A stretch of DNA of 22,345 nucleotides from a virus. The notes below the pieces were generated by a model that was not told the origin of the DNA, made no database searches, and saw nothing but the letters and a program-made list of their open reading frames with translations. The stretch's first letter is position 1, and each line of letters begins with the position of its first letter. This document shows positions 1 to 18,553 of the stretch, piece after piece. The stretch is from positions 1 to 22,345 of IMG/VR virus record IMGVR_UViG_3300036885_000027. One strand, 5' to 3'. Position numbers and translations under genes: made by a program.

Positions 1-1201
1 CATCGAAAGTTTCATCATAGGTATCTGTGACGGCATTAGTACCATCCTCATTAATCTCATTATCATCATTTTCATTGATTAAATTAAGCGGAGTTAAAGT
101 AACTCTGACCGATGTTGCGTCTATGTTAAGCAATCCAATACTGTCAAAATTTCCGGGATTGAGGACATAGGACATTGACGTTGCTTGTGAAGTTTGATTA
201 CCTATCGTACTGTCAAATATTGCCCAACGGTTTGTAGAACCGATTAAAAACCAATAGTCAGTAGAAATAAGTTTTCCATTAGAGTCATACGAAACAGGGT
301 TATTGTTAAAATTATTATCTGTTTTTGACTGATAAATTGTATGGACATTCGGAGTTGTGACCATTACATAATCGTCAGTAGAATAAAAGGCCGATCCGCT
401 TAACATGTATATATCGCCGATTTGAACGCAGGCGTAAATATTTCCATTTGGCGCGACTGCCATATCCTGCCATTCCTTATTCCCTTGGCTTAATAATACA
501 AAGTTCCCGGTTCCTCCTTTTTGCACATAAATATCACCGTTCTCAACACAAGCATAAATATTGCCGTTTTCATCAGCTGTTAATCCTGTCCAATAACGAA
601 GGGTTTGCCCTAGAGAAATAAAATCTCCCTCGCCGTTCGTCTGCATATAAATATTTCCCGGCGTGCAATCGCAGGCATAGATATTACCGTTTGGCGCGGC
701 GCACATTCCATACCATCCCCTTGAAGCCTGACTCAACGCAATGAAATTGCCCGTTCCAGCGGTCTGCTTATAAATATCGCCGTTATATACGCAAGCATAA
801 ACGTTACCATTACCGCTCGCGCACATTCCATACCAAGCGCAGGCCGTTTGAGCTAATGAAACAAAATTTCCTGCTCCCGCAGTTTGCATATAAATATTAT
901 CTGTATTTCCTACGCAGGCATAGATATTACCGTTTGGCGCGGCGCACATAGACATCCAATTACGGGAAGTTTGGCTCAACGCGACAAAATTTCCCGTGCC
1001 GGCGGTTTGCATATAAATATCTCCTGTCCAGTTGCAAGCGTAAATATTGCCGTTCGGCGCCGCGCATATCCCCCGCCAATAACGAGAAGTTTGCGAAAGA
1101 GCGGCAAAAATAAAAGAAGCCCATTCTGAATAATCCGCTTCCGGCACGTCCGAAGATACGAGCATTGCATCAGTTATATTTATAGGTAAAACGAAATCCA
1201 T
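1..1201 (-). CDS. Repeat-rich, propeller-like tail-associated protein (3' end outside window)
   Basis: Reading from ATG at 1201 the frame is open for 400 codons and leaves the window. Residues about 30-268 hold six tandem units of 40-41 residues, each with an NGNIYAC (or NGNVYAC) motif, at residues 50, 90, 131, 171, 212 and 252, followed by GDIY-QTAGTGNF and a W-GMCAAP strand. This periodicity suits a six-bladed beta-propeller or similar solenoid. Residues about 270-375 are a separate beta-rich region (STDDY... NRWAIFD... LLNIDATSVRVTL) that resembles domains I associate with phage tail/baseplate proteins. The ATG overlaps the tape measure stop by one base (TAATG), so translation is probably coupled. 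Role inferred: distal tail component, perhaps binding host surface glycans. The presence of about two cysteines per repeat is odd for a virion protein. Distal function cannot be judged because the C-terminus is missing. Confidence 0.8.
   Translation of the reverse strand, partial: MDFVLPINITDAMLVSSDVPEADYSEWASFIFAALSQTSRYWRGICAAPNGNIYACNWTGDIYMQTAGTGNFVALSQTSRNWMSMCAAPNGNIYACVGNTDNIYMQTAGAGNFVSLAQTACAWYGMCASGNGNVYACVYNGDIYKQTAGTGNFIALSQASRGWYGMCAAPNGNIYACDCTPGNIYMQTNGEGDFISLGQTLRYWTGLTADENGNIYACVENGDIYVQKGGTGNFVLLSQGNKEWQDMAVAPNGNIYACVQIGDIYMLSGSAFYSTDDYVMVTTPNVHTIYQSKTDNNFNNNPVSYDSNGKLISTDYWFLIGSTNRWAIFDSTIGNQTSQATSMSYVLNPGNFDSIGLLNIDATSVRVTLTPLNLINENDDNEINEDGTNAVTDTYDETFD
398..1114 (-). repeat. 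Six tandem ~120-bp coding repeats
   Basis: Six in-frame units of 120-123 bp encode the 40-41 residue repeats of the propeller-like protein. The core coding NGNIYAC recurs almost unchanged at DNA level, and the outer units are more diverged than the central ones. The length alternation (40, 41, 40, 41, 40 residues) comes from one extra residue in the loop before or after the motif. Similar DNA between units makes this a likely site for recombination that changes repeat number. Confidence 0.85.
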
Positions 1202-4200
1202 TAACTTACCGTCCTTGTCTCAGGGAGACCCACTCCCTCCCATTGGTTAATAATTCTGGTTACTTTATCAGAATTTACTTTTGAAGATGCATTGCTCTGG
1301 GCAATTTCTTTTCGCAATGCCTTTACTTCAGCAACTAATTCAGCATAACTTGCGCCTGTTATAGTTGCGGGGTAACTCTTTTTCGGGGATACAACAAGTT
1401 CTGTACCATGTAATGTCGCTTGATAACCACTGTCTGGGCCAATAGCCATGCCGCCATCAGCATAAGAAGGCAGTCCTGCTAAAGCCCGTTGATATGCAAT
1501 ATTAGTTGAATAGTTTTCCGGTTTGATCGCGGCAGTTGCCGCCTCGATATATTTATAATACTGATCTGCTGTTTTAGCCAAAAGCATTAATTCGGTATAG
1601 TCCGCCGTACCGGTCGCTGTTGTTAAGTCCTGCGATTCGACAAGGGAACGATAACCTGCCCGTGTTGAAGGTAAAGACATTCCGTATTGAGACATCGCCT
1701 CAGATAATTGAGTTTTGAGTATTCTTTGTTTCTCAGTATCGTTAAAAAAAGCATCATAATAAGATTGCATAGCAGATGTAATTTTATCGAGTCCACCGGC
1801 AATGGTTACAAGCGTCTCACTGAATTTTATCGCTGCCGGAATTGTGCCGTTGAATTTTTGATTTGTCATTTCGAGATAATGCGCAATAGTTTCTCTGTCT
1901 GTCACTAGTCGAATTGCCGTTTCTAACAATCCCTCATTTAATTTCTGATATTCTTTCAACATCGAACCGAACAGAACTTCAACTGCTGTATCGGAAATAT
2001 TGGAAATATATTCCTGGAGGGCTTTATTCATCTGGTCGGTAGTCATGCCCTGAAGATTAATTTTTGTTTCTGCAAAGGCATAATTAAGAGCGGCATTGGT
2101 ATCTGTACCTAATTCTTTAGATAATGTAACTAGAGTCGAACCAAGGTTTTTAAATACCAATGTTAGCATATCCGTAACTTGACTATTGAGAGGAGATAAA
2201 ACATCACTTGTACTAGACGAACCACCACCAAACAATCCCCATAATGCACCAGTGGTATCCGTTGTTACCGTGGTGTATTGTTGGGCTGCGGCAGAAGCAC
2301 CTTTGAGAATATCGTTTACAATATTTTTACCTATATCTATACCCGTGGCATTGACGGTGGTTGTGGAACTTCCAAATAATCCGCCTTGCAGCCAATTCAT
2401 AGCATTATCCAGCCATTTAAGGCCGGTATTCCACCCCGAACCTCCGCCCATTCCGAATATGTCAGCATTGTTTGTCGTACCGGTTATAGTTGGAGCAGAG
2501 GAAAGGCCGCCGGTCCTGACGATAGAGGTCACGAGTCCGGTGATATTATTATTGAGGTTCTGAAGTTCATAAAAAATGCTGGTTAATTTGGTGTCTTCAA
2601 CATTGTAAATTGATTCCAGCATTTTATAGGAATTTTCAATGGATTGTGATCCGGTATTATCTGCCGCACCGAGAACGGTTGTTTTTCCGGTATAAGTCGG
2701 CGCATTTGCCGCTGACCCCACACTTGCACTATTTGCACCTCCAACAATTCCAGCTGCACTAAGAACTGCCGCTACAATCGCCATCATTGCCGCTACACGT
2801 GCAAAGGCAGTATAAGCATCCCCACTCGCCCCAGCATTAAGCGTTGCTGTAGCCCCAGTTGTAATTGCTAATCCCGCTTCTGCTTGGGTTGCCGCTACTG
2901 TCGCAGGTATTCCTGCTAAAATAGCAAGATTTTTTTGAACAATCATGAGTTGCTCTGCTATCTGTGCGGCCTTCTTAGCATCTTGCATAATTTGATAGCC
3001 TTTTGATTCCTTATCCATTAATGCGCTGGCATTATCAAAAACAGCAATTGCATTTGTAATCGTTTCTTTCTGGTATTTATGTTCACTATCATAATTATTA
3101 CTTATTGTAGTAATTTCATCATCTAATGCTTTATGTTTATCTTGCGTTTTTTTCTGATCGGCTGCTCTTGTTTGTAAATCAGTTTTTGCATTCGCTGCTG
3201 CTACTTCTGCTGCTGTTTTTTTACCTTGATTTCCCAATTCAATTATTGCATTCTTTTCTGTTTCTATTGCTACAAGCCTTGCTTTTTTTTCTAATTCTAT
3301 TTTTTCAATTATTTTATTATAAACAATTTCTTCAAATCCTGAAATTTGGGAATAATAATCAATTTCTAACTGCAAAGTATTTTGTTTAGCTTCATTTATT
3401 AATGCAGTTTCTGCCGCTTTTCTATCAAACACAACCTTCATGCCTAATAATTGTGCATCAGAAAGTTCTTTAGCATATTGGATTTGCCTATCTGAAAATG
3501 CCTTTGCCGCCTGAGTTGCCTTTTCAGCACCAGCATCATCACCCATCCCTTTAAGATAAATTGCTCTATCTTCCAGTCTTTTTACATATTCTTTTTGTAA
3601 ATCAGAAGTTAATTTCTGTGCATCATCTTTCTCTTTATTTACACTTGAACCTTGAGCATTGTTGAATTGCTGTTCCATCAAGTCAACTTTATTCTTAATA
3701 GCCAACGCGGTTAATTCTTGATATTGTTCAGATGTCTTACCTTGCACAATTTCAAGATAAGATAACTGCATATCAAGCATTTTCTTCTCAGTGGCATTGC
3801 GTAAAATAAATATCTCATTATCTCTTGCTTTTTCAAGTAATACTATTTGCTCTTTTGTATGAGACGCAGAAGCCATTTCTTTCTGGTATTTTTGTTCAAT
3901 TTCCAATATTTGAAAAGCAAGTGACTGTGATGATAAATCACCTAATGATTTATAAAGATTGGACATTGTAGCGAGGGTTTTCTGTGCTGCATCCTCATTA
4001 GCTATTGCCCTATCACCCTCATCCTTTGCGTACTCTTTGTTATACTTAGCATAAATTTCATTATCTTTAGCTTGCAGAACGGCTTCAGCATCAAACTTTT
4101 TACCAACACCGTCTTTGGATATAGTTGCTGCATATGCTTCTAATGCTGTTTGCTTTTCAGCATTATCATATTCTTTTTGCAAATACTGATTAAGAGCAAT

Positions 4201-5655
4201 TTCTTTTGCATCATATAAAGTTTGAATAGTTTTGTATTCATCTTGACCAGCACGCTGACTTAACTTTGCTACCTGTTCAGCAGTCTTAACTTGCTCATCA
4301 TAGTAAGCCTTATCCGCTTGCATTTTCTTTTGGATAATTTCTTGCTGATCTTTAACTGAATCTTTAGGTTCAGCACCCTTTCCTGGTAGTACAGTAGGAA
4401 CAGGAGTTTTACCTTGTGCATCAGCTTTTGCTTTCATTGCGGCATCAGTATTGTCTTTTTCCTGTTCTTTTCTAAATAAGTCTCTTTGTTTTTTTTCTGT
4501 ATCATATTCTTCTTTAATCCAAGCTAGTTTTGCTTCGTGTTTTCTTTTGGCACTAGCAAGATTAGCTTCTTGATCGGCAAACGTGGAGTTTAAATAAATA
4601 TCAGCTACTTTTGCTGCATACGTAATGTACTCTAAATCTTCTTTGAAACCTTTTGCAAATATCGACCAAACATCTATAATTCCATAAACCATAGATATTC
4701 CAGCCATTCTCACTTCTTCAAATTTGTTTAAAATTGTACCCACTTCCCATCCAATAATTGCTGCTGTGAATACTCCAAAACCTAATGTCATTTTACTGGT
4801 AACTAAAGTAACTCTTGCAGACATTATATCCCATTTTACCATAAACCAATCTAGTGCAGTACCTGCTTTAATAGCTGCTGATACTGCGGCAATTGCCCAT
4901 AAACCAAAGAAAACAATAGTTGCTTCTATAGCAAATTTCAACATAGCCATTATGTTGTTAATTGATTTTACAATTTCACCAGTATTCGCTCTTATCCATG
5001 TATTAGCTTTTTGCCCTTCTGCAATAAGGTCTTTATAAACATCTTTAAATAAACCTTGTTGTAAAATCATCCATGTCGTTTGAAGTGATGATTTGGTAGC
5101 TTCCCACATTTTATTAACATCACCAGTCGCTGCTGCATAACCAACTAAATAAGGTTCTATTCTAGCTAACCAATCATTATGTTTTTGTGCTTCTGCATTT
5201 AATTCTTTGAGTCCGCCTTTATATACACCTTCTCTTTTGATAGCTTGGTCAATTGCCATTGCAACCCTATTCCTTGACGATACTTGTCCAAGCAATAAAG
5301 CATTTGTTTCTTTTGTTGACTCAATTTCTATGCGTTGTCCACCCCAAGCAATATAAATTGCATTTGTAAGTGCCGTTGTAGTTTCTACTTGTTTTTTGTT
5401 ATTTCCGTCTAATATAACCCCGTTTCGTGCCATTGCATTATTGACCAACATTACCTGTTCAAGATTCATAAAAGAATTAGCATCTATTTGCATTAAAACA
5501 GGAACAAGTTCTTTGGCATATGCAAGGTTTTTCTTATAATTCTCTGCTATATTCCCCGAAGTTCCCTGTATATTGGTTATTGTTGCAGCAACGGCTATAG
5601 CTGACATTTGCATCTTATCAATTGTCTCAACACCAGACATAAAAAATTCTGCCAC
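1201..5655 (-). CDS. Tape measure protein, main (C-terminal) part, split from its N-terminus
   Basis: This encodes most of a phage tail length tape measure protein. The 1484 residues from GTG at 5655 show two hydrophobic segments (about 240-264 and 288-306), a long Lys/Glu/Ala/Gln-rich coiled-coil region (about 370-930), an Ala-rich hydrophobic stretch (about 940-1040) and a C-terminal YADGG...SGY-ATLHGTE motif (about 1397-1418), which is common at tape measure C-termini. The frame is open upstream to 5709, just after a TGA at 5710-5712. Neither the GTG nor the nearby ATG has a Shine-Dalgarno sequence, and the residues encoded upstream of the GTG (LYAAYYVISNVGRVV) read like the continuation of a tape measure N-terminal region. 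I therefore see this as the larger part of one roughly 1650-residue protein, whose start is the ORF at 5673-6191. Independent translation is possible but poorly supported. Confidence 0.9.
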   Translation of the reverse strand: MAEFFMSGVETIDKMQMSAIAVAATITNIQGTSGNIAENYKKNLAYAKELVPVLMQIDANSFMNLEQVMLVNNAMARNGVILDGNNKKQVETTTALTNAIYIAWGGQRIEIESTKETNALLLGQVSSRNRVAMAIDQAIKREGVYKGGLKELNAEAQKHNDWLARIEPYLVGYAAATGDVNKMWEATKSSLQTTWMILQQGLFKDVYKDLIAEGQKANTWIRANTGEIVKSINNIMAMLKFAIEATIVFFGLWAIAAVSAAIKAGTALDWFMVKWDIMSARVTLVTSKMTLGFGVFTAAIIGWEVGTILNKFEEVRMAGISMVYGIIDVWSIFAKGFKEDLEYITYAAKVADIYLNSTFADQEANLASAKRKHEAKLAWIKEEYDTEKKQRDLFRKEQEKDNTDAAMKAKADAQGKTPVPTVLPGKGAEPKDSVKDQQEIIQKKMQADKAYYDEQVKTAEQVAKLSQRAGQDEYKTIQTLYDAKEIALNQYLQKEYDNAEKQTALEAYAATISKDGVGKKFDAEAVLQAKDNEIYAKYNKEYAKDEGDRAIANEDAAQKTLATMSNLYKSLGDLSSQSLAFQILEIEQKYQKEMASASHTKEQIVLLEKARDNEIFILRNATEKKMLDMQLSYLEIVQGKTSEQYQELTALAIKNKVDLMEQQFNNAQGSSVNKEKDDAQKLTSDLQKEYVKRLEDRAIYLKGMGDDAGAEKATQAAKAFSDRQIQYAKELSDAQLLGMKVVFDRKAAETALINEAKQNTLQLEIDYYSQISGFEEIVYNKIIEKIELEKKARLVAIETEKNAIIELGNQGKKTAAEVAAANAKTDLQTRAADQKKTQDKHKALDDEITTISNNYDSEHKYQKETITNAIAVFDNASALMDKESKGYQIMQDAKKAAQIAEQLMIVQKNLAILAGIPATVAATQAEAGLAITTGATATLNAGASGDAYTAFARVAAMMAIVAAVLSAAGIVGGANSASVGSAANAPTYTGKTTVLGAADNTGSQSIENSYKMLESIYNVEDTKLTSIFYELQNLNNNITGLVTSIVRTGGLSSAPTITGTTNNADIFGMGGGSGWNTGLKWLDNAMNWLQGGLFGSSTTTVNATGIDIGKNIVNDILKGASAAAQQYTTVTTDTTGALWGLFGGGSSSTSDVLSPLNSQVTDMLTLVFKNLGSTLVTLSKELGTDTNAALNYAFAETKINLQGMTTDQMNKALQEYISNISDTAVEVLFGSMLKEYQKLNEGLLETAIRLVTDRETIAHYLEMTNQKFNGTIPAAIKFSETLVTIAGGLDKITSAMQSYYDAFFNDTEKQRILKTQLSEAMSQYGMSLPSTRAGYRSLVESQDLTTATGTADYTELMLLAKTADQYYKYIEAATAAIKPENYSTNIAYQRALAGLPSYADGGMAIGPDSGYQATLHGTELVVSPKKSYPATITGASYAELVAEVKALRKEIAQSNASSKVNSDKVTRIINQWEGVGLPETRTVS

Positions 5656-5672
5656 AACACGACCAACATTAC

Positions 5673-6191
5673 TTATGACATAGTAAGCGGCATAGAGGCC
5701 ATTGACATTTCATGGTCGCCTACCATTTCTTTGTTGAGTGTTTTTAACTGCTCATTCTTAGCATGTTCTGCATTAATGCGTTCTTGGTCATTCTTAAAAC
5801 CAATAGTTTTTATAGCATCAAAAGAGGCAATGACAGACGCTTTTTGTGCTTCAATAGCCGCCATAGACCTGATACCTAAAGTCTCAAAAAGTGGATTTGC
5901 ATTCATCTTTTGATTTGCAACATTAATTGAAGTTACCATTGCTGCATACGATCTCTCAACTTCCGCAAGTGATGATTTTGCAGATAGACCGATTTTGCTA
6001 AAAGCTAATTCAGCCCTTGTTGCCATTGCAGCATATATTTCATCAGAGGTAACTCCCAATCTCTGAAAATTACTATTAATGGTAGCAGCTGCTTCTTTTG
6101 ATTCAGCAAGTATCTTTTTTTGAGCATTGGTATAGGCAGTGGTTTCTAAATCGAGGCTCACGACCATCTCGCCAACTGGTTTTTTTGCCAT
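5673..6191 (-). CDS. Tape measure protein N-terminal part (frame-broken)
   Basis: A 172-residue ORF starting at ATG 6191 with a good GAGGAG site 7 bases upstream, overlapping the preceding gene's stop by one base (TAATG). It opens with a VVSLDLETTAYTNAQKKI segment, is then largely helical, and ends in SMASMPLTMS before TAA. The opening looks like the extreme N-terminus of tape measure proteins (a beta strand followed by helices), and the protein stops abruptly where the -1 frame carries on with tape-measure-like sequence. The two frames are both open only across about 34 bases (5676-5709). The likely history is a small deletion; see the finding on TCTATG repeats. It could also be a separate short protein. 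I see no classical slippery heptamer in the overlap. Confidence 0.8.
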   Translation of the reverse strand: MAKKPVGEMVVSLDLETTAYTNAQKKILAESKEAAATINSNFQRLGVTSDEIYAAMATRAELAFSKIGLSAKSSLAEVERSYAAMVTSINVANQKMNANPLFETLGIRSMAAIEAQKASVIASFDAIKTIGFKNDQERINAEHAKNEQLKTLNKEMVGDHEMSMASMPLTMS

Positions 6192-6640
6192 TATTTAACT
6201 CCTCGTGGCCCACCGCCATTTTCACAAATATCAACCACGTCACTCATGGATTCACTTAATGCTGGACGAAAGAATGGTTTAGCCCCACCCTTCCATCCGC
6301 CTTTGCCATATTCAAGTTGCAAAGCCCACCATGCATCATAATTTCCTGACATCACCCAGATGTTCTTTACAGCAGGATTCTTTGACCTAACAGTACGAAT
6401 GGTATTCACCATTTCCTTGTGATAGCGGGCTGTCCATGATGCTCCAGATTTTTTGCCTGTTTTATCATTTCTGACTGTTTTATATGGCCCATGTTCTTTC
6501 CACTGTTCAGCAAGAATTGTATTCAATTTTACCTTTGCCTTATCTCGAATAACATCAGCCGCACTTTCAACCCGGTCTAATGCCGCATCAAAAAATTCAT
6601 TATCATATTTCGACATATCAAGAGTAAACTTAACGGCCAT
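6191..6640 (-). CDS. HK97 gp10-like tail completion/minor tail protein
   Basis: This 149-residue protein has the hallmarks of the HK97 gp10-like family: an N-terminal helical segment beginning after MAVKFTLDMSKYD, a middle part with WTARYHKEMVNTIRT and NIWVMSGNYDAWWALQLEYG, and the typical closing 'large-aromatic-Tyr-Gly then PFFRPAL' motif near residues 110-130. Family members usually take part in finishing the head-tail interface and normally sit between the head-tail adaptor and the tail terminator. Here the gene lies next to the tape measure instead. It overlaps the preceding 50-aa ORF by 11 bases and the next ORF by one base, consistent with coupled translation in one operon. Confidence 0.75.
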   Translation of the reverse strand: MAVKFTLDMSKYDNEFFDAALDRVESAADVIRDKAKVKLNTILAEQWKEHGPYKTVRNDKTGKKSGASWTARYHKEMVNTIRTVRSKNPAVKNIWVMSGNYDAWWALQLEYGKGGWKGGAKPFFRPALSESMSDVVDICENGGGPRGVK

Positions 6641-6825: not shown

Positions 6826-7347
6826 TTATGATTGCTTTATAGCCTGTCGCAAATCAGAATTTGTCTTCATCTGCTTGGCAACTATATTGCCAATCTCTTT
6901 ACCATCAATGGCAATATTTACATGGATGTTATCTTCTTCTTTTAGTAACCTATTGAATACACGAATCACCATTAAAAAGCACTCATATGGGCTAACAATA
7001 CTACCATCATGGTCAATGGCCGCCCACACCGCTAAATGGTTCAAGTCAACATGTTTGTTACTTTCACCATCCCAAACATTGATGATTTGCCGACGACATA
7101 ACATGAATATCCTTGCAGCAGCCTCACATCCCGGAATCAAATTCACTTGGCAAGGATTGCATGGAGGCTTTTCAGATGGGTTCCTTTCAGTATACATTGA
7201 TCGGCAAAGGAAGCAATGCGTAAGCACCGTTCCATCATCGAGTTCTAATGAATTTGCATTCTGACGATCCTGAAAGTTAACCCAATCACAAATATTCTTT
7301 ACTTCGATTGACTCATCCATTGCTCCTACCTTTCTGGCTTTCGCCAT
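6826..7347 (-). CDS. Second T-like tail assembly chaperone domain (paralogue of 7347-7721)
   Basis: This 173-residue protein matches, in order, the frameshift-encoded T-like domain just upstream: an ICDW motif (CEW upstream), a Cys pair HCFLC, a second pair PPCNPC, a helix with EAAARIF, then VDLNHLAVWAAI and a C-terminal helical part. The two Cys pairs could bind a zinc ion. Its C-terminal 65 residues or so, ending in IAKQMKT-like helix, have no match in the upstream copy. The start overlaps the preceding stop by one base (TAATG at 7347). A second ATG at 7320 has AAAGG and GGAG upstream and keeps all conserved motifs, so the protein may start there (164 aa). Position between tube and tape measure supports a chaperone or tail tip role. 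Confidence is high that it is a gene, moderate for function. Confidence 0.7.
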   Translation of the reverse strand: MAKARKVGAMDESIEVKNICDWVNFQDRQNANSLELDDGTVLTHCFLCRSMYTERNPSEKPPCNPCQVNLIPGCEAAARIFMLCRRQIINVWDGESNKHVDLNHLAVWAAIDHDGSIVSPYECFLMVIRVFNRLLKEEDNIHVNIAIDGKEIGNIVAKQMKTNSDLRQAIKQS

Positions 7348-7721
7348 TACCCTTCGTTATCCCTTTTCCTTTGTTGAGCCTCATGCCACGCTTTTAAAAT
7401 ATTTTGGAACGTCTGCCATTCGTCTTTAATCCCACCAGGATATTTTTCAATTGCTTTCCAAAGAGACGGATGATGAAGGTCAACCTCAAAACTCTGCTCA
7501 CCATTGAATCTTGTTTCACATTGAGAACGAACTATTAAAAAGATTTTAGCAGCAGTTTCATTCTCTGGTAATAACTCCACCCGTTTCTTTTCATCCATGC
7601 AGGTTTCGCACGGAGGTTCTTGCGGGGGAGTTCGTTCACCCATCATTATTTTGCATCGAGTGGGACAGTAAGGGGGGTCGTCCCCCCCGTATAGTGTTAT
7701 GTAGCTGGCCCACTCACAGAG
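7347..7721 (-). CDS. T-like extension of tail assembly chaperone, read by -1 frameshift
   Basis: This frame is open from the slippery site at 7721-7727 to TAA at 7347 (124 codons). Read after a -1 slip, it begins LCEWASYITLYGG, then has YCPTRC and PPCETC Cys pairs, a PENETAAKIF helix and VDLHHPSLWKAIEKY. A possible independent start is ATG ATG at 7641-7646 (99 aa), but it has no ribosome site and would leave out the CEW and first Cys-pair motifs that are conserved in the downstream paralogue. The predicted fusion with the upstream gene is 148 + 124 = 272 residues. By analogy with lambda gpG/gpGT, the T part would recruit tail tube subunits to the tape measure. This is inference from gene order and the slippery site. 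Confidence 0.75.
   Translation of the reverse strand, partial: LCEWASYITLYGGDDPPYCPTRCKIMMGERTPPQEPPCETCMDEKKRVELLPENETAAKIFLIVRSQCETRFNGEQSFEVDLHHPSLWKAIEKYPGGIKDEWQTFQNILKAWHEAQQRKRDNEG
7671..7688 (-). other. GC hairpin inside the frameshift extension
   Basis: Six G:C pairs (7682-7687 with 7672-7677) plus a possible G:U pair close a four-base ACGA loop. It lies 9 bases past the zero-frame stop of the chaperone and in the -1 frame is read through as Gly-Gly-Asp-Asp-Pro-Pro. No T-run follows on the minus strand, so it is not a standard intrinsic terminator. It may stall ribosomes, protect the transcript end, or have no role. Confidence 0.6.
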
Positions 7722-8164
7722 TTTTTTGATGTTTCTTCTTCAATGCTATGACTATCAATGGTTTGCTGGCAATCAGTAAAGAAACGATCAAAGAAATCCT
7801 TTTGCATCAAAGCGATTTTATTCTCTCTGGTGCATTCGATAACCTTTCGTGTCTTTTTGTCCTTCCAACCTTCAAGACCAGTAATAGCGTAATCAATAGC
7901 ATCGTCTTTTTGCTTTATGATTTCTGCTGTAGTCAAGTCTTTCAGATTTGAATGTTTCTCATTCTGTCTAGTTTTAGAATTAATTTTCCATTCGACAATC
8001 CGCTCTCTTGAATTTATTTGCTCTTCAAAAAACGGTTTCCAACTTCTTATCTGAACCTTGACCCCTTTTATTGGTTCATCCCAAATGATGTCTCCTGTAT
8101 TTGGATCAATTTTAGACATACGAAAATCAAACCACTCACCTTTGTTTTCAAGATCAATAAACAT
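7697..8164 (-). CDS. Tail assembly chaperone, G-like
   Basis: A 155-residue protein between the tail tube gene and the tape measure, the usual place for the gpG-type tail assembly chaperone. It contains a WFDFRMSKIDP beta region (residues 11-21), a central charged helix and, at 93-116, ITGLEGWKD followed by ECTRENK, a pattern I associate with this chaperone class (a 'small insert then C-T-x-E-N-K' segment that precedes a helix). The C-terminus is acidic and disordered (IEEETSKNSV...). I chose ATG 8164 because AAAGAG lies about 9 bases upstream; a TTG at 8191 would add nine residues and lacks a site. The slippery heptamer covers codons 146-148, eight codons before the TAA at 7697. Confidence 0.75.
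   Translation of the reverse strand: MFIDLENKGEWFDFRMSKIDPNTGDIIWDEPIKGVKVQIRSWKPFFEEQINSRERIVEWKINSKTRQNEKHSNLKDLTTAEIIKQKDDAIDYAITGLEGWKDKKTRKVIECTRENKIALMQKDFFDRFFTDCQQTIDSHSIEEETSKNSVSGPAT
7721..7727 (-). promoter_or_regulatory. Predicted -1 ribosomal frameshift heptamer (A AAA AAC)
   Basis: On the minus strand the zero-frame codons are TCA AAA AAC, giving a perfect X XXY YYZ slippery heptamer. Tandem slippage to AAA AAA keeps pairing and moves the ribosome into a -1 frame that stays open through the zero-frame stop and into the T-like domain. A purine-rich GAAGAAGAA stretch lies about 9-17 bases upstream and could act as a weak internal Shine-Dalgarno stimulator. A GC hairpin lies 32 bases downstream. 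Confidence 0.75.
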
Positions 8165-8238: not shown

Positions 8239-8667
8239 TTACGAACCTGACCCTACTTGTTCCATCGCTTGACTGGATACCTGACCGGAAAAGGAAATTG
8301 TACCAAAGTTGTTTCTCGGTAAGGTCACTGCGTTTGCCTTGGTGACGATGATAAATCCGCCAGCACTTACTCTCCAGAATGTCGAAGTGTTGGCATAGAG
8401 ATAAAGATCGGTCAGATGTGTTCCTGCCTGGCAAAGAGCCGATAAAGCTAACTGTCCATTGGTATCAGTCGGATCATAATTCCCGTTAAATTCAATCGTC
8501 CCGGCCTCTCCTAATTCTGCAACTTCGTAAACCTTTGTTCCCGTATCTCCAAAGGCTGTTGGTGCCGATGTTACCGGCAGATTAAAACCACTCATTGACC
8601 ATGACACCATGTTGGCTACCACGACACTTCCATACATAACTTTTCCATTTACTCCCGAAATTTTCAT
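8239..8667 (-). CDS. Major tail (tube) protein
   Basis: A 142-residue, beta-rich protein starting at ATG 8667 with the strongest ribosome site in the window (TAGGAGG, 8 bases before the ATG), as expected for an abundant virion protein. It has a short N-terminal strand region (MKISGVNGKVMYGSVVVANMV), an insert rich in Gly/Thr/Asp with EAGTIEFNGNYDPTD (about residues 56-70) and closing strands (RNNFGTISFSGQVSSQ). These features suit the single-domain siphovirus tail tube fold, which stacks as hexameric rings around the tape measure. It is followed directly by the tail assembly chaperone gene, the conserved order for tube genes. A divergent or decoration-like protein is the main alternative. Confidence 0.75.
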   Translation of the reverse strand: MKISGVNGKVMYGSVVVANMVSWSMSGFNLPVTSAPTAFGDTGTKVYEVAELGEAGTIEFNGNYDPTDTNGQLALSALCQAGTHLTDLYLYANTSTFWRVSAGGFIIVTKANAVTLPRNNFGTISFSGQVSSQAMEQVGSGS

Positions 8668-8699: not shown

Positions 8700-10094
8700 T
8701 TATACTACTACTTCAACCTCCGGCCCTGCCGAAGTCATAAATTCTTTCAACTGTTCTAATTTTTCTTCAGCATCAGGTGATAATCCTAATGCTGTTGAAT
8801 CTACTTTCCATTTTTCATTAAATCTATCGTGAAGCATTTTGTAGTTTTTTCTAAACGTCTCACAGGGAAACCACTTGAACGACCTTAGACAATAGTGTTC
8901 ACAAAACGCATCAATTACAAATGCTTGCCCACCCATTTCCCATGTCTGTAAAACACACAATGTGCCGTATAGATCAAATCCGGTCAATGTTTCATCAAAC
9001 CTAAATCCACTCTTCATATTGACAATTATCACTGCCTCGTCAAAGCAACAGGCTGGATGCGGAAAAGTATGAATGTCGGAAGTATCAAAATAATCAGGAA
9101 TCCGCATATCGTGAAACTTTCCGCAAATTAAACCACTTGCATCCTTACCGATAACCCCCGCAACAACCCAACTATCTGGTAATAATTTAATCTGACTTTT
9201 TACCTGATCTATCCAACCTGATCTTAGATAAACATCCTGATGAACTAAACAGCAAATATCCGCGCCTTCATTTTCAGCTTTGTCCAAAAGTATGTTTAAT
9301 CCCTTGGTAGCTGATTCGGCATTCTGCACATAGTTCATCGATCCTTGTATTTGTGATCGTTTTAAAACCATGTCCAGTCTCAGTGTGTCATTCACCAAAA
9401 CACCAAAATTGACATTGAATTTCTCTCCTGCTTCTGCCTGAGTAATTTTGATAAATTCATCAAGTTGATTTTCATAATTCACTATCAGATCATCATAATC
9501 ACTTTCTTTTTCACCGGGAATAACTACAACCTGACAACCGCACATTTTCGCCTCGGTAATCAAGGCCGTATTGTCATCATAGGTAAAAAATACTTCTTTT
9601 CCATTCAGTAATAATGCAAGTTCTTCCCGTGTTTCAGGCCATTCGTAAGTAATTTCACACATACACTCAGTTTCGGGTATGTGCGGAACATTAATTCCCT
9701 TGCCTACCCAAAAACAAGCACCTGAGCGTGGTAAATGTTCGTTTCTAAAAAAGTCCTCAATGATTGGAACGGTTAAAACGGGAGCATCATAATAATTTTC
9801 TGACCATGTAAAAATAAGTTCATTTTTAGCATAAACTTTGTCACCACCAAGTAAACTAGGTGTATTTAAAACCCATCGCACAACTGTATTGCCGTTCATC
9901 GGATTTCCTGATACGGTCTCAGGATAAATAACGATTGCATTAGAAGGTACTTTCCATCCTTGATAAAATCCACCGATTATTTCAACTTTATAGTTCTTTG
10001 CTTCAAGAGATTTTCCAAGTGAATATAATGCCCTTACACCGGCTGAACTATTCCGGTAAGGAGGGGCTAAAATTATGTAAGGATGCTTATTCAA
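8700..10094 (-). CDS. Two-domain glycosyltransferase
   Basis: Reading from TTG 10094, the product is 464 residues. I chose this start because AAAGGAG lies 5 bases upstream and it leaves the 62-aa ORF upstream intact; the longer frame to 10196 has no site and would overlap that ORF almost entirely. Residues about 1-215 resemble a GT-B type donor-binding half, with WVLNTPSLLGG (75-85) and YDDNTALITEAKMCGC (172-187). Residues about 225-400 resemble a GT-A type transferase with VHQDVYL (284-290), an acidic site of the kind that binds metal and sugar nucleotide, then FDETLTGFDLYG and a final FCEHYC. The fusion suggests sugar transfer in two steps, or one half being regulatory. Target is unknown: virion proteins are likely, given the setting between tail genes, but host cell-surface sugars are possible. 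Confidence 0.7.
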   Translation of the reverse strand: MNKHPYIILAPPYRNSSAGVRALYSLGKSLEAKNYKVEIIGGFYQGWKVPSNAIVIYPETVSGNPMNGNTVVRWVLNTPSLLGGDKVYAKNELIFTWSENYYDAPVLTVPIIEDFFRNEHLPRSGACFWVGKGINVPHIPETECMCEITYEWPETREELALLLNGKEVFFTYDDNTALITEAKMCGCQVVVIPGEKESDYDDLIVNYENQLDEFIKITQAEAGEKFNVNFGVLVNDTLRLDMVLKRSQIQGSMNYVQNAESATKGLNILLDKAENEGADICCLVHQDVYLRSGWIDQVKSQIKLLPDSWVVAGVIGKDASGLICGKFHDMRIPDYFDTSDIHTFPHPACCFDEAVIIVNMKSGFRFDETLTGFDLYGTLCVLQTWEMGGQAFVIDAFCEHYCLRSFKWFPCETFRKNYKMLHDRFNEKWKVDSTALGLSPDAEEKLEQLKEFMTSAGPEVEVVV

Positions 10095-10275
10095 TGTTAC
10101 TCCTTTCTTCTGATGTAATATCCCAATCATCCATTGCTTGTCGTGCTTCATCGGGGGTACGCTTCCCCTCTGACTGAAACATTCTTTCACTATCATCGCC
10201 CATTGTAGGGGGTATTTCTACCCACCTAAAAGCAATCCATTCCTGTCTTGTGATTTTACTAAGTTCCTTTTCCAT
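10087..10275 (-). CDS. Small acidic ORF, 62 aa, unknown function
   Basis: ATG at 10275 has AAAGGA about 5 bases upstream, and the frame ends in TAA at 10087, 8 bases into the glycosyltransferase gene. The product is hydrophilic and acidic near its C-terminus, with ITRQEWIAFRWVEIP in the first third and EARQAMDDWDITSEERSNIE at the end. No membrane segment, Cys pair or known fold is visible. It might be a small tail protein or an accessory partner of the glycosyltransferase. The strong ribosome site and the close fit with both neighbours support it as a real gene. Confidence 0.55.
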   Translation of the reverse strand: MEKELSKITRQEWIAFRWVEIPPTMGDDSERMFQSEGKRTPDEARQAMDDWDITSEERSNIE

Positions 10276-10291: not shown

Positions 10292-10918
10292 CTATTGTGT
10301 CGTTATTTCATAATCCTGCACATAGTGTTTTACGGTCTGCGTTCCGCTTGGTGTGGTTATATCTTCAATCATCGTCTGCAATCCCGCCCGTTTCATCCAA
10401 ACCAAATCATTACTCGTTATCATCAAAAAGCAATCGTCAAAAAGCACCCTTAAATCATTGTGAAGACCTGTTATTTCTACAGCCGAACTGGATGCTGAAA
10501 ATATTGAAAACTGAATTAATGTCTCTCCCCCTTTTTTTGCAAAAACATTATCGTCATTATTGGTTACAACAAAAAAAACAATGTAAGGATAGTCCGCACC
10601 TGTATCAGCTTCGTCTAAAAATAATCTTCCTCCAATATTGGTATAAAGGTCGTTTGGAACAGTTCTAAATCTTTCATTAATGGCCTTTAAAAGATTACCA
10701 ATAATCTCATTTTCTTCACCAACTGCGCTCTGCCCATATATTCCTACCAAAGAGGATAACGCTCCAAATAATGTCCCATATTTAACTACTGATATATCAG
10801 GAGCATGATAAGTACCAGGTACTCCGCCCACCGTATCAATATCCAAAACATTCCCAATAGCCGGGTAGTCGCCTGCTTGATAGGGAAAATAACCATTGGG
10901 AAAATATGGATAATTCAT
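10292..10918 (-). CDS. Tail completion protein paralogue with N-terminal extension
   Basis: Residues about 74-208 closely match the protein at 14252-14662. In one 75-residue stretch I hand-counted 49 identities (segment starting IGGR-FLDEA and ending ITS). The conserved block (DEA.TG.. .YP, KKG...LIQFS.FS, AEITG..NDL..LFD) resembles the tail completion/terminator group (DUF3168/HK97 gp11-like), which closes the head-proximal end of the tail tube. The first 73 residues (MNYPYFPNGYFPYQAGDYP, Tyr/Pro/Gly-rich, then a hydrophobic segment) are absent in the other copy and could be a linker that attaches the neighbouring adhesin-like proteins. The ATG overlaps the previous stop (TAATG at 10918). 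The second copy may have lost the terminator role. Confidence 0.7.
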   Translation of the reverse strand: MNYPYFPNGYFPYQAGDYPAIGNVLDIDTVGGVPGTYHAPDISVVKYGTLFGALSSLVGIYGQSAVGEENEIIGNLLKAINERFRTVPNDLYTNIGGRLFLDEADTGADYPYIVFFVVTNNDDNVFAKKGGETLIQFSIFSASSSAVEITGLHNDLRVLFDDCFLMITSNDLVWMKRAGLQTMIEDITTPSGTQTVKHYVQDYEITTQ

Positions 10919-14251: not shown

Positions 14252-14662
14252 CTACCCAACTTCTTTGCAGGTTATAAAAACAAATTCTCGTTTCTTGTCA
14301 GCGTCAATTCCATCCGGTGTTGTTATATCCTCAGTCATTGTCGTTAAATTTGACCAGTGCATATTGTTAAAAATGGTACTTGTTATAGTCAATGTGCATT
14401 CGTCAAAAAGGGATATAAGATCATTATACATTCCTGTTATTTCAGCCGCACTTTGTGAAGATGAAAACAATGAAAACTGAATCAATACTTCTTTGCCCTT
14501 CTTTTGAAAAGCATTGTCTGGAGTTCCGGTGACAATGAAATAAACACAATAAGGAAATTCAGTTCCGGTTGGTGCTTCGTCTAAAAATATTCTCCCACCG
14601 ATATCATTTGAAAATGATGAATTAGCGAACTTCCCAAATATTGCTGTGAGTAAATTTGTCAA
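14252..14662 (-). CDS. Tail completion (terminator-type) protein
   Basis: A 136-residue protein starting at TTG 14662, for which GGAGG lies 7 bases upstream inside the end of the adaptor gene. The TTGA overlap with that gene's TGA is typical of coupled translation; the longer frame to 14680 has no such site. Core motifs are IGGRIFLDEAPTGTEFPY, KKGKEVLIQFS, AAEITGMYNDLISLFDEC and MTEDITTPDG, which fit the DUF3168/HK97 gp11-like tail completion group. Its location directly after connector and adaptor genes is the canonical one, so of the two copies in this window this one is the better candidate for the real terminator. Confidence 0.7.
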   Translation of the reverse strand: MTNLLTAIFGKFANSSFSNDIGGRIFLDEAPTGTEFPYCVYFIVTGTPDNAFQKKGKEVLIQFSLFSSSQSAAEITGMYNDLISLFDECTLTITSTIFNNMHWSNLTTMTEDITTPDGIDADKKREFVFITCKEVG

Positions 14663-14979
14663 CCTGCCGCCTCCAAACAAGTAATAATTAATTCTTCATT
14701 ATATTCATATGGATTTGTAATTCCACTGATTGAAAAATATCTATTACCAAATTTTATTCGCCATGACGCTTTGAATACAGATAAATAACGAATAGTAATT
14801 TGATGACTTGCATTTAATCCTTGTTGCATTGCCTCAGTTTTCCTATGAGACGAAAGAGGAGAAATCTCAGCAAAGACAGTTTTATAATCAACCCAAGTTG
14901 AAGTTGACCCTCCCATTCCATCAGAAACTTTAGTTTGGTACTGGATCGTCACCCGTTTTGAAAGATCACCCGCCCTCAT
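14659..14979 (-). CDS. Head-tail adaptor (SPP1 gp16-like)
   Basis: A 106-residue protein with the characteristic opening MRAGDLSKRVTIQYQ, a WVDYKTVFAEISPLS strand and a closing region with ISGITNPYEYNEELIITCLEA. These match the phage head-tail joining/adaptor family (SPP1 gp16, PF05521), which closes the connector and joins it to the tail. It starts at ATG 14979, overlapping the connector stop in ATGA, and ends in TGA at 14659, overlapping the next gene's TTG. The gene order connector-adaptor-completion is as expected. Confidence 0.85.
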   Translation of the reverse strand: MRAGDLSKRVTIQYQTKVSDGMGGSTSTWVDYKTVFAEISPLSSHRKTEAMQQGLNASHQITIRYLSVFKASWRIKFGNRYFSISGITNPYEYNEELIITCLEAAG

Positions 14980-17884: not shown

Positions 17885-18553
17885 TTAGTTGACTATAGCT
17901 TCCGGTTGATTTTCATATTTCAAACGGATAATTTCAGTGTAACCTGCTTGCCAAAAATCACGGTTATAGTTTGCGCGACAATTACAACTCACGCAAAGTG
18001 TGATAAGGTTCTCTGGGTTGCAATTTTTTTTGTCGTAATCGATGTGATGACAGGTCAAGGTATTGACTTCTCCTCGACAATCAGGGTTTTGGCATTCGTG
18101 GTTATCACGTTCCCGGATACCTGCCTTAAATCTCTTGTCCACGAAAATTGGAGGGTATGGTTCGTAAGAAATTCCACCTTTCCAATTTGAATTTCCTGCC
18201 CCATTCATTGCCGTGTTACCAAAATTGGGATTTGCCTCACCTTTGAAGTTTTCAGATCGCCACTTTCCATAACAAGTATCGTTACAGAAATTCTTTTCAT
18301 TGATAAGACTTGGAAACCTGAATAACTCTACTCCGCATTGAGAACAAGGAACTGACTTTTTGTGGATATCACGTTTCTTCGCTCCACCATTGAATTTATC
18401 AGTTTGTAGTTGCGGACGAGCGGAAATCCCAAACTTCTTGAGACGCCACGAAATACCACCATGAGTGGGTAGACCTAACGTATCAGCACATTGCCGGAGC
18501 GTCAGGTCTTGCCCGATATAGAGATTTTCAAGTTGCTGTTTCGTAACGTTCAC
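17885..18553 (-). CDS. Free-standing HNH endonuclease (homing-type)
   Basis: This 222-residue protein has an N-terminal helix-turn-helix (residues 1-45, with a LRQCADTLGLPTHGGISWRLKKFG segment split as 19-28 and 29-42), a zinc-finger-like region (CSQC at 70-73, CNDTC at 90-94), an NSNWKGG DNA-binding motif (121-127, as in NUMOD3 proteins) and a C-terminal HNH nuclease: C154, C159, H169-H170, PEN at 180-182, and CVSC at 187-190. Residue 191, usually His in this type, is Asn, followed by a conserved NYNRDF stretch. It starts at GTG 18553 with AAGGTAGG upstream. The gene sits between capsid and decoration genes with no matching intron, so it is likely a selfish homing endonuclease. Confidence 0.85.
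   Translation of the reverse strand: MNVTKQQLENLYIGQDLTLRQCADTLGLPTHGGISWRLKKFGISARPQLQTDKFNGGAKKRDIHKKSVPCSQCGVELFRFPSLINEKNFCNDTCYGKWRSENFKGEANPNFGNTAMNGAGNSNWKGGISYEPYPPIFVDKRFKAGIRERDNHECQNPDCRGEVNTLTCHHIDYDKKNCNPENLITLCVSCNCRANYNRDFWQAGYTEIIRLKYENQPEAIVN

Follow-up and report, generated by a model that had tools for sequence, protein, structure and literature searches.

Two adjacent open reading frames (ORFs) on the minus strand of a 22,345-nucleotide stretch of viral DNA (IMG/VR record IMGVR_UViG_3300036885_000027, positions 1 to 22,345; hereafter the window) raise the question of whether they are separate genes or a single gene that is read in two ways. The first, G, begins at ATG 8164 and encodes 155 amino acids before a stop codon at 7699 to 7697 (7697–8164, minus strand). 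The second, T, would be placed by an ordinary gene caller at 7347–7646 (minus strand), where it starts at an ATG that lacks a ribosome-binding site. An earlier note, made from the letters of the window, had proposed that a −1 programmed frameshift links the two. We consider it highly likely, given the sequence evidence assembled here, that the two ORFs are one gene expressed by −1 ribosomal frameshifting of the lambda G/GT type; the register, a slippery heptamer and covarying stems are kept across 45 loci.

The G and T frames meet at a candidate slip site

In the zero frame, the 3′ end of G reads ...GAA ACA TCA AAA AAC TCT GTG AGT GGG CCA GCT ACA TAA, and includes the heptamer A AAA AAC (7721–7727, minus strand). 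The earlier note had assigned the longer string TCA AAA AAC to positions 7727 to 7721. The heptamer indeed occupies these positions in the X XXY YYZ register, whereas the TCA codon begins outside them, at 7729. As had also been stated, the G stop codon is the eighth codon past the AAC of the heptamer. The −1 frame carries no stop codon from 7721 to 7349–7347, and thus remains open past the G stop and through the 50-base gap (7696 to 7647) that precedes ATG 7646. This extension (7347–7721, minus strand) comprises 124 codons and a stop, and specifies cysteine pairs and a DUF1799-like C-terminal part. Joined to 148 residues of G, it yields a predicted G-T fusion of 272 amino acids, the length originally given, and its first 25 residues are those that a gene call at ATG 7646 misses.

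The sequence of the junction itself should be revised. The peptide expected previously was K-L-C-E-W, but S-K-N-L-C-E-W is more likely if both tRNAs slip, the A-site tRNA-Asn doing so after pairing with AAC. A K at the junction position would mean slippage with the P-site tRNA alone in place.

Relatives keep the register and a slippery heptamer

To define the scope of what follows, the locus set (n = 45) consists of the window, 43 distinct loci obtained from IMG/VR profile scans, and the locus L103. These loci are kin, a few of them near-identical, and hence do not represent 45 independent events. Searches of the window G and T proteins against 50,697 phage records gave no match, and three other T proteins likewise found nothing in the phage collection. 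Two scans of T profiles against genome contigs also revealed no relative, so no host genome was found.

All 45 loci place T in the −1 frame relative to G, and all have a slippery heptamer, in register, at the homologous site where T homology starts. The heptamer is A AAA AAC in 42 loci, and is replaced by A AAT TTT in L010, A AAT TTG in L021 and A AAT TTA in L022. Of the 6,883 other codon positions in the G ORFs, 37 (0.54%) carry an in-register X XXY YYZ sequence, and none carries A AAA AAC. Because the three exceptional heptamers have changed in sequence yet stayed slippery, these data suggest that slipperiness, rather than the residues Lys-Asn, is under conservation.

The same loci bear on the possibility that T is an independent gene, whose translation begins at ATG 7649 or ATG 7646 through re-initiation after the G stop. 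The cistrons are close, and in the window the pair of ATG codons lies about 50 nucleotides past the G stop. However, no Shine–Dalgarno (SD)-like sequence was found at either ATG, consistent with the earlier observation that the second ORF lacks a ribosome site, and the stretch of T frame from the heptamer to these codons has no ATG, GTG or TTG. Moreover, a conserved Trp and the first Cys pair of T are encoded upstream of both ATGs and recur in close relatives and in a paralogue at 6826–7347, which upholds the claim that the gap is coding. In L026, none of the codons ATG, GTG and TTG is found in the T frame from the point where it opens until 180 nucleotides past the heptamer. Several other loci have their first such codon only ~117 to 177 nucleotides past the heptamer, and in L025, L029, L030, L031 and L036 this late start codon, at 159 to 177 nucleotides past the heptamer, lies inside the conserved domain. 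An independent start would also leave the conserved −1 register, the heptamer and the downstream stems unexplained. We regard such a start for T as very improbable.

Predicted stem-loops follow the heptamer

A two-tiered stem-loop, kept in A-type relatives, is predicted at 7657–7716 (minus strand) of the window. Its outer tier pairs GAGTGGG with CCCACTC (7715–7709 with 7664–7658) and adds pairs between 7707–7705 and 7668–7666, and its inner tier pairs GGGGGG with CCCCCC (7688–7683 with 7677–7672). This hairpin, which was absent from the earlier note, begins 4 to 5 nucleotides past the heptamer and has a predicted free energy of −28.5 kcal/mol (z −3.11). It exceeds in strength all 1,486 sampled 60-nucleotide windows of the minus strand.

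Each of the main T subfamilies (A-, D- and C-type) has its own stem starting 4 to 8 nucleotides past the heptamer, and the three designs share no common sequence. The D-type stem consists of 14 base pairs and a 10-nucleotide loop (TGGATCGAG...CTCGATCCA and variants), and the C-type stem of 11 base pairs that close a 40-nucleotide loop. Other or less clear folds are present in a few loci, such as L032, L029 and L058. Among 20 D-type sequences, two-sided changes occur in 8 of the 14 pairs, and 85.7% of cells are paired versus 75.2% in shuffled alignments, with none of 500 shuffles as high; this value falls to 47% or less when the pairing is slid. For the eight C-type sequences, 96.6% of cells are paired versus 88.2% when shuffled, and two-sided changes are found in four pairs. 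Both the paired cells and the covariation score of the C-type stem are matched by 0 of 500 shuffles, whereas its count of two-sided pairs (32/500) and its further pair types (496/500) do not stand above all shuffles. The covariation found in the D- and C-type stems indicates that downstream RNA structure is probably under selection. For the A-type stem, which is that of the window, z is −3.1 in the window and −4.1 at another A-type locus; across six sequences this stem is conserved, but its covariation is not above that of shuffles. Rfam matches across the junction region were all under gathering scores.

An SD-like element precedes the slip site in most relatives

In the majority of relatives, such an element is found 4 to 14 nucleotides 5′ of the heptamer. 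The mean best SD duplex is −6.93 kcal/mol compared with a background of −3.27 kcal/mol, and 64% of loci reach −6 kcal/mol or lower compared with 16% of the background. Part of this signal arises because the upstream region is Glu-rich. Nonetheless, it goes beyond what synonymous recoding of the region gives (−5.47; paired p 2e-4, a value that ignores the kinship of the loci). The element is nearly absent from the window, where the best duplex is only −1.9 kcal/mol.

Given this element near the slip site, the signal of the relatives would be dnaX-like. The dnaX-type signal comprises an SD sequence, a heptamer and a hairpin; the heptamer and hairpin are common to both systems, and most relatives add the SD-like element. 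The two differ in that the window is without a clear SD, in that the heptamer here is A AAA AAC rather than the A AAA AAG of dnaX, and in that the dnaX product is a shorter protein, whereas the product here would be a longer fusion.

These elements are relevant to a second alternative, wherein the frame changes during transcription, by slippage of the polymerase along the A run, and not on the ribosome. The heptamer does sit within a run of six to seven A residues in most members, as such slippage would favor. Yet a run of six A is short for transcriptional slippage, and L010, L021 and L022 have no long homopolymer while remaining two-tRNA slippery in the −1 register. Furthermore, a stem 4 to 8 nucleotides downstream together with an SD-like element upstream suits a translating ribosome. 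Slippage by the polymerase is, in our judgment, no more probable than a separate start for T. Lastly, a sequencing error at the junction, or decay of a formerly continuous gene, is scarcely credible as an explanation despite the broken tape measure gene in the same window, since the −1 arrangement recurs with covarying stems in the 44 other loci, which come from many metagenomes, none of these relatives has G and T fused in one frame, and codon changes in the gap between the window and L011 are mostly synonymous (six versus one nonsynonymous; other pairs are mixed).

Relationship of G and T to tail assembly chaperones

The earlier note had recommended a search of the fusion against tail chaperone profiles. 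Such matches are indeed obtained with relatives, whereas the G and T proteins of the window itself give no significant match. Among the 33 members of the G family, 18 hit the PHROG 313 profile (tail assembly chaperone), with a best value of 4.4e-14; the window G has no PHROG 313 match and aligns with the other G proteins of the family. For T, 13 of 22 relatives match Pfam PF08809 (DUF1799) at E values up to 1 (best 1.8e-4), although L066, with 27 bits against a curated cut-off of 26, is the sole T relative above that threshold, and the window T scores below it (13.4 bits, E 0.09). These matches span the C-terminal part of T alone, and not its cysteine region. T relatives also match PHROG 680 (best 1.4e-9). 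Thus, gene order, PHROG 313 for G and DUF1799 for T support a tail-chaperone identity, a link that runs through the relatives.

Four cysteines of T are invariant in an alignment of 22 sequences and probably bind zinc, perhaps as a zinc knuckle, although matches of T relatives to zinc-ribbon profiles are weak. A literature search brought to light no zinc-bearing tail chaperone, judging by titles and abstracts. AlphaFold models have pLDDT values of 83 for T and 80 for G. On comparison with folds in the PDB, T gave Z scores of at most 3.1 and G gave no match, and profiles of G and T found no significant sequence match in the PDB. Matches in BFVD were weak (E > 0.01), though several of the top ones are tail or tape-measure chaperones.

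Proposed mechanism and comparison with known systems

From the computed register, slip site, stem, conservation and family links, we infer the following course of translation. Most ribosomes would terminate at the G stop and release the 155-amino-acid G protein. A minority, paused by the hairpin, would allow the P- and A-site tRNAs (Lys and Asn) to slip one base back on A AAA AAC, and the slipped ribosomes would then read on through T to produce the fusion. Lambda makes G and GT at about 30:1; both attach to the tape measure protein, and the T part draws in the tail tube protein (PMC5009743). By analogy with lambda gpG/gpGT, the G protein described here may coat the tape measure protein and T may bring in the tail tube protein, and the G:GT ratio would be set by the frequency of slippage.

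The lambda-type G/GT mechanism is already well known in tailed phages. Its features include a −1 slip near the end of G, a T domain present only as a fusion and a position before the tape measure gene, all of which are shared by the layout predicted here. Lambda slips on G GGA AAG, and the present family differs from it in its A AAA AAC slip site, its strong covarying stems and the four-cysteine motif of T. The frameshifts of lambda gpG/gpGT and of other tail assembly chaperones were reportedly treated by Xu, Hendrix and Duda in 2004, and PMC5009743 reviews them.

In E. coli, A AAA AAC is a less effective slip site than A AAA AAG (PMC5009743). An archaeal host was considered since the halovirus HCTV-2 uses A AAA AAC (PMC5009743), and was set aside because the related record L012 contains a phage lysozyme, which points to bacteria.

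The nearest annotated G is that of Caulobacter phage CcrColossus (gp116/gp117, NC_019406), which carries the annotation "programmed frameshift". Its G is 25% identical to the short G type of our family, a weak relationship (tblastn E 0.6 with L046). Its slip site, G GGA AAC, lies directly before TGA, as A AAA AAC does in many of our loci, and its T begins with KLI, a likeness to the T proteins described here. In contrast, the CcrColossus T is without cysteine pairs, and this large phage belongs to another lineage.

What is very probably new, judging from the sequences, is a lineage of lambda-type G/GT frameshifts with RNA signals in uncultured phages, characterized by the invariant four-cysteine T motif, by G and T types that are combined in different ways at the slip site, and by an SD-like element in most relatives. 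This finding provides a working gene structure for an uncultured phage lineage whose T ordinary gene calling would truncate. It also connects DUF1799 of Pfam, at least in part, with the T half that tail chaperones produce by frameshifting. In addition, the family constitutes a natural series of ~45 signals, in which the slip site is shared while the stem takes three designs and the SD element varies, suited to probing how the G:GT ratio is controlled.

Possible exchange of G and T modules and a second copy of T

Sorting the proteins into types with simple motif-based rules shows that the long G type and the short G type each occur alongside C-type as well as D-type T. The pairwise identities of G correlate with those of T at only 0.32, and L013 and L015 are 77% identical in T versus 35% in G. 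This mixing of types, the low correlation and the contrast between L013 and L015 suggest that G and T have been exchanged at or near the slip site.

A second T-domain copy, of the D type, is located immediately downstream in the window (6826–7347, minus strand) and starts at its own ATG, which overlaps the T stop (TAATG). It is 40% identical to the T of L015 and 30% identical to the T of the window, and its homology begins near the residue that matches the frameshift junction. Where the heptamer would be, it reads GTA AAG AAT ATT, and no stem was found at its start (z 0.34). The copy thus offers an internal contrast, in which an own start is present and the frameshift signals are gone. It is the only one found among the loci searched; L103 runs from T straight to the next gene. 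Because its last 32 residues resemble the C terminus of the L003 tape measure protein, this copy may be a recombination remnant.

A broader proposal, which we offer tentatively and would not yet call probable, is that the slip site serves as an evolutionary joint. G modules and T modules with separate ancestries might be swapped there, each T bringing its own stem folded from the codons of its N-terminal cysteine region, such that one heptamer serves interchangeable halves. The neighboring T copy might then represent the reverse step, wherein an own start was gained and the signal was lost.

Gene neighborhood

The genes of the window run in the order tail terminator, probable major tail protein, G, T, T copy, tail completion protein and tape measure. 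G and T therefore lie between a major tail protein-like gene (8239–8667, minus strand; phrog_158, a weak match at E 0.017) and the tape measure gene (phrog_7740, 1.3e-33), an order that L012 shares. The tail completion gene (6191–6640, minus strand; phrog_5, E 1e-4) has an orthologue in L103 that directly follows T.

The tape measure gene (1201–6191, minus strand) occupies two frames, 5673–6191 and 1201–5655, and is apparently broken near 5691–5697. It is intact in L003 and L012, and the window seems to be short of a small stretch at this position, where no slippery heptamer was found. The missing stretch reflects a genuine lesion or else a mistake in assembly. Because this gene looks broken, the record may be a decaying prophage or may carry an assembly error.

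Several other genes of the window merit mention. Two genes, at 10292–10918 and 14252–14680, both resemble tail terminator/tail completion gp17 and are kept apart by unrelated genes encoding 631 and 456 amino acids. Between the tail terminator-like and probable major tail protein genes lies a gene for a 498-amino-acid protein (8700–10196) that has no significant profile match and appears glycosyltransferase-like by eye. Finally, an HNH endonuclease gene (17885–18553), probably mobile, adjoins the major capsid gene.
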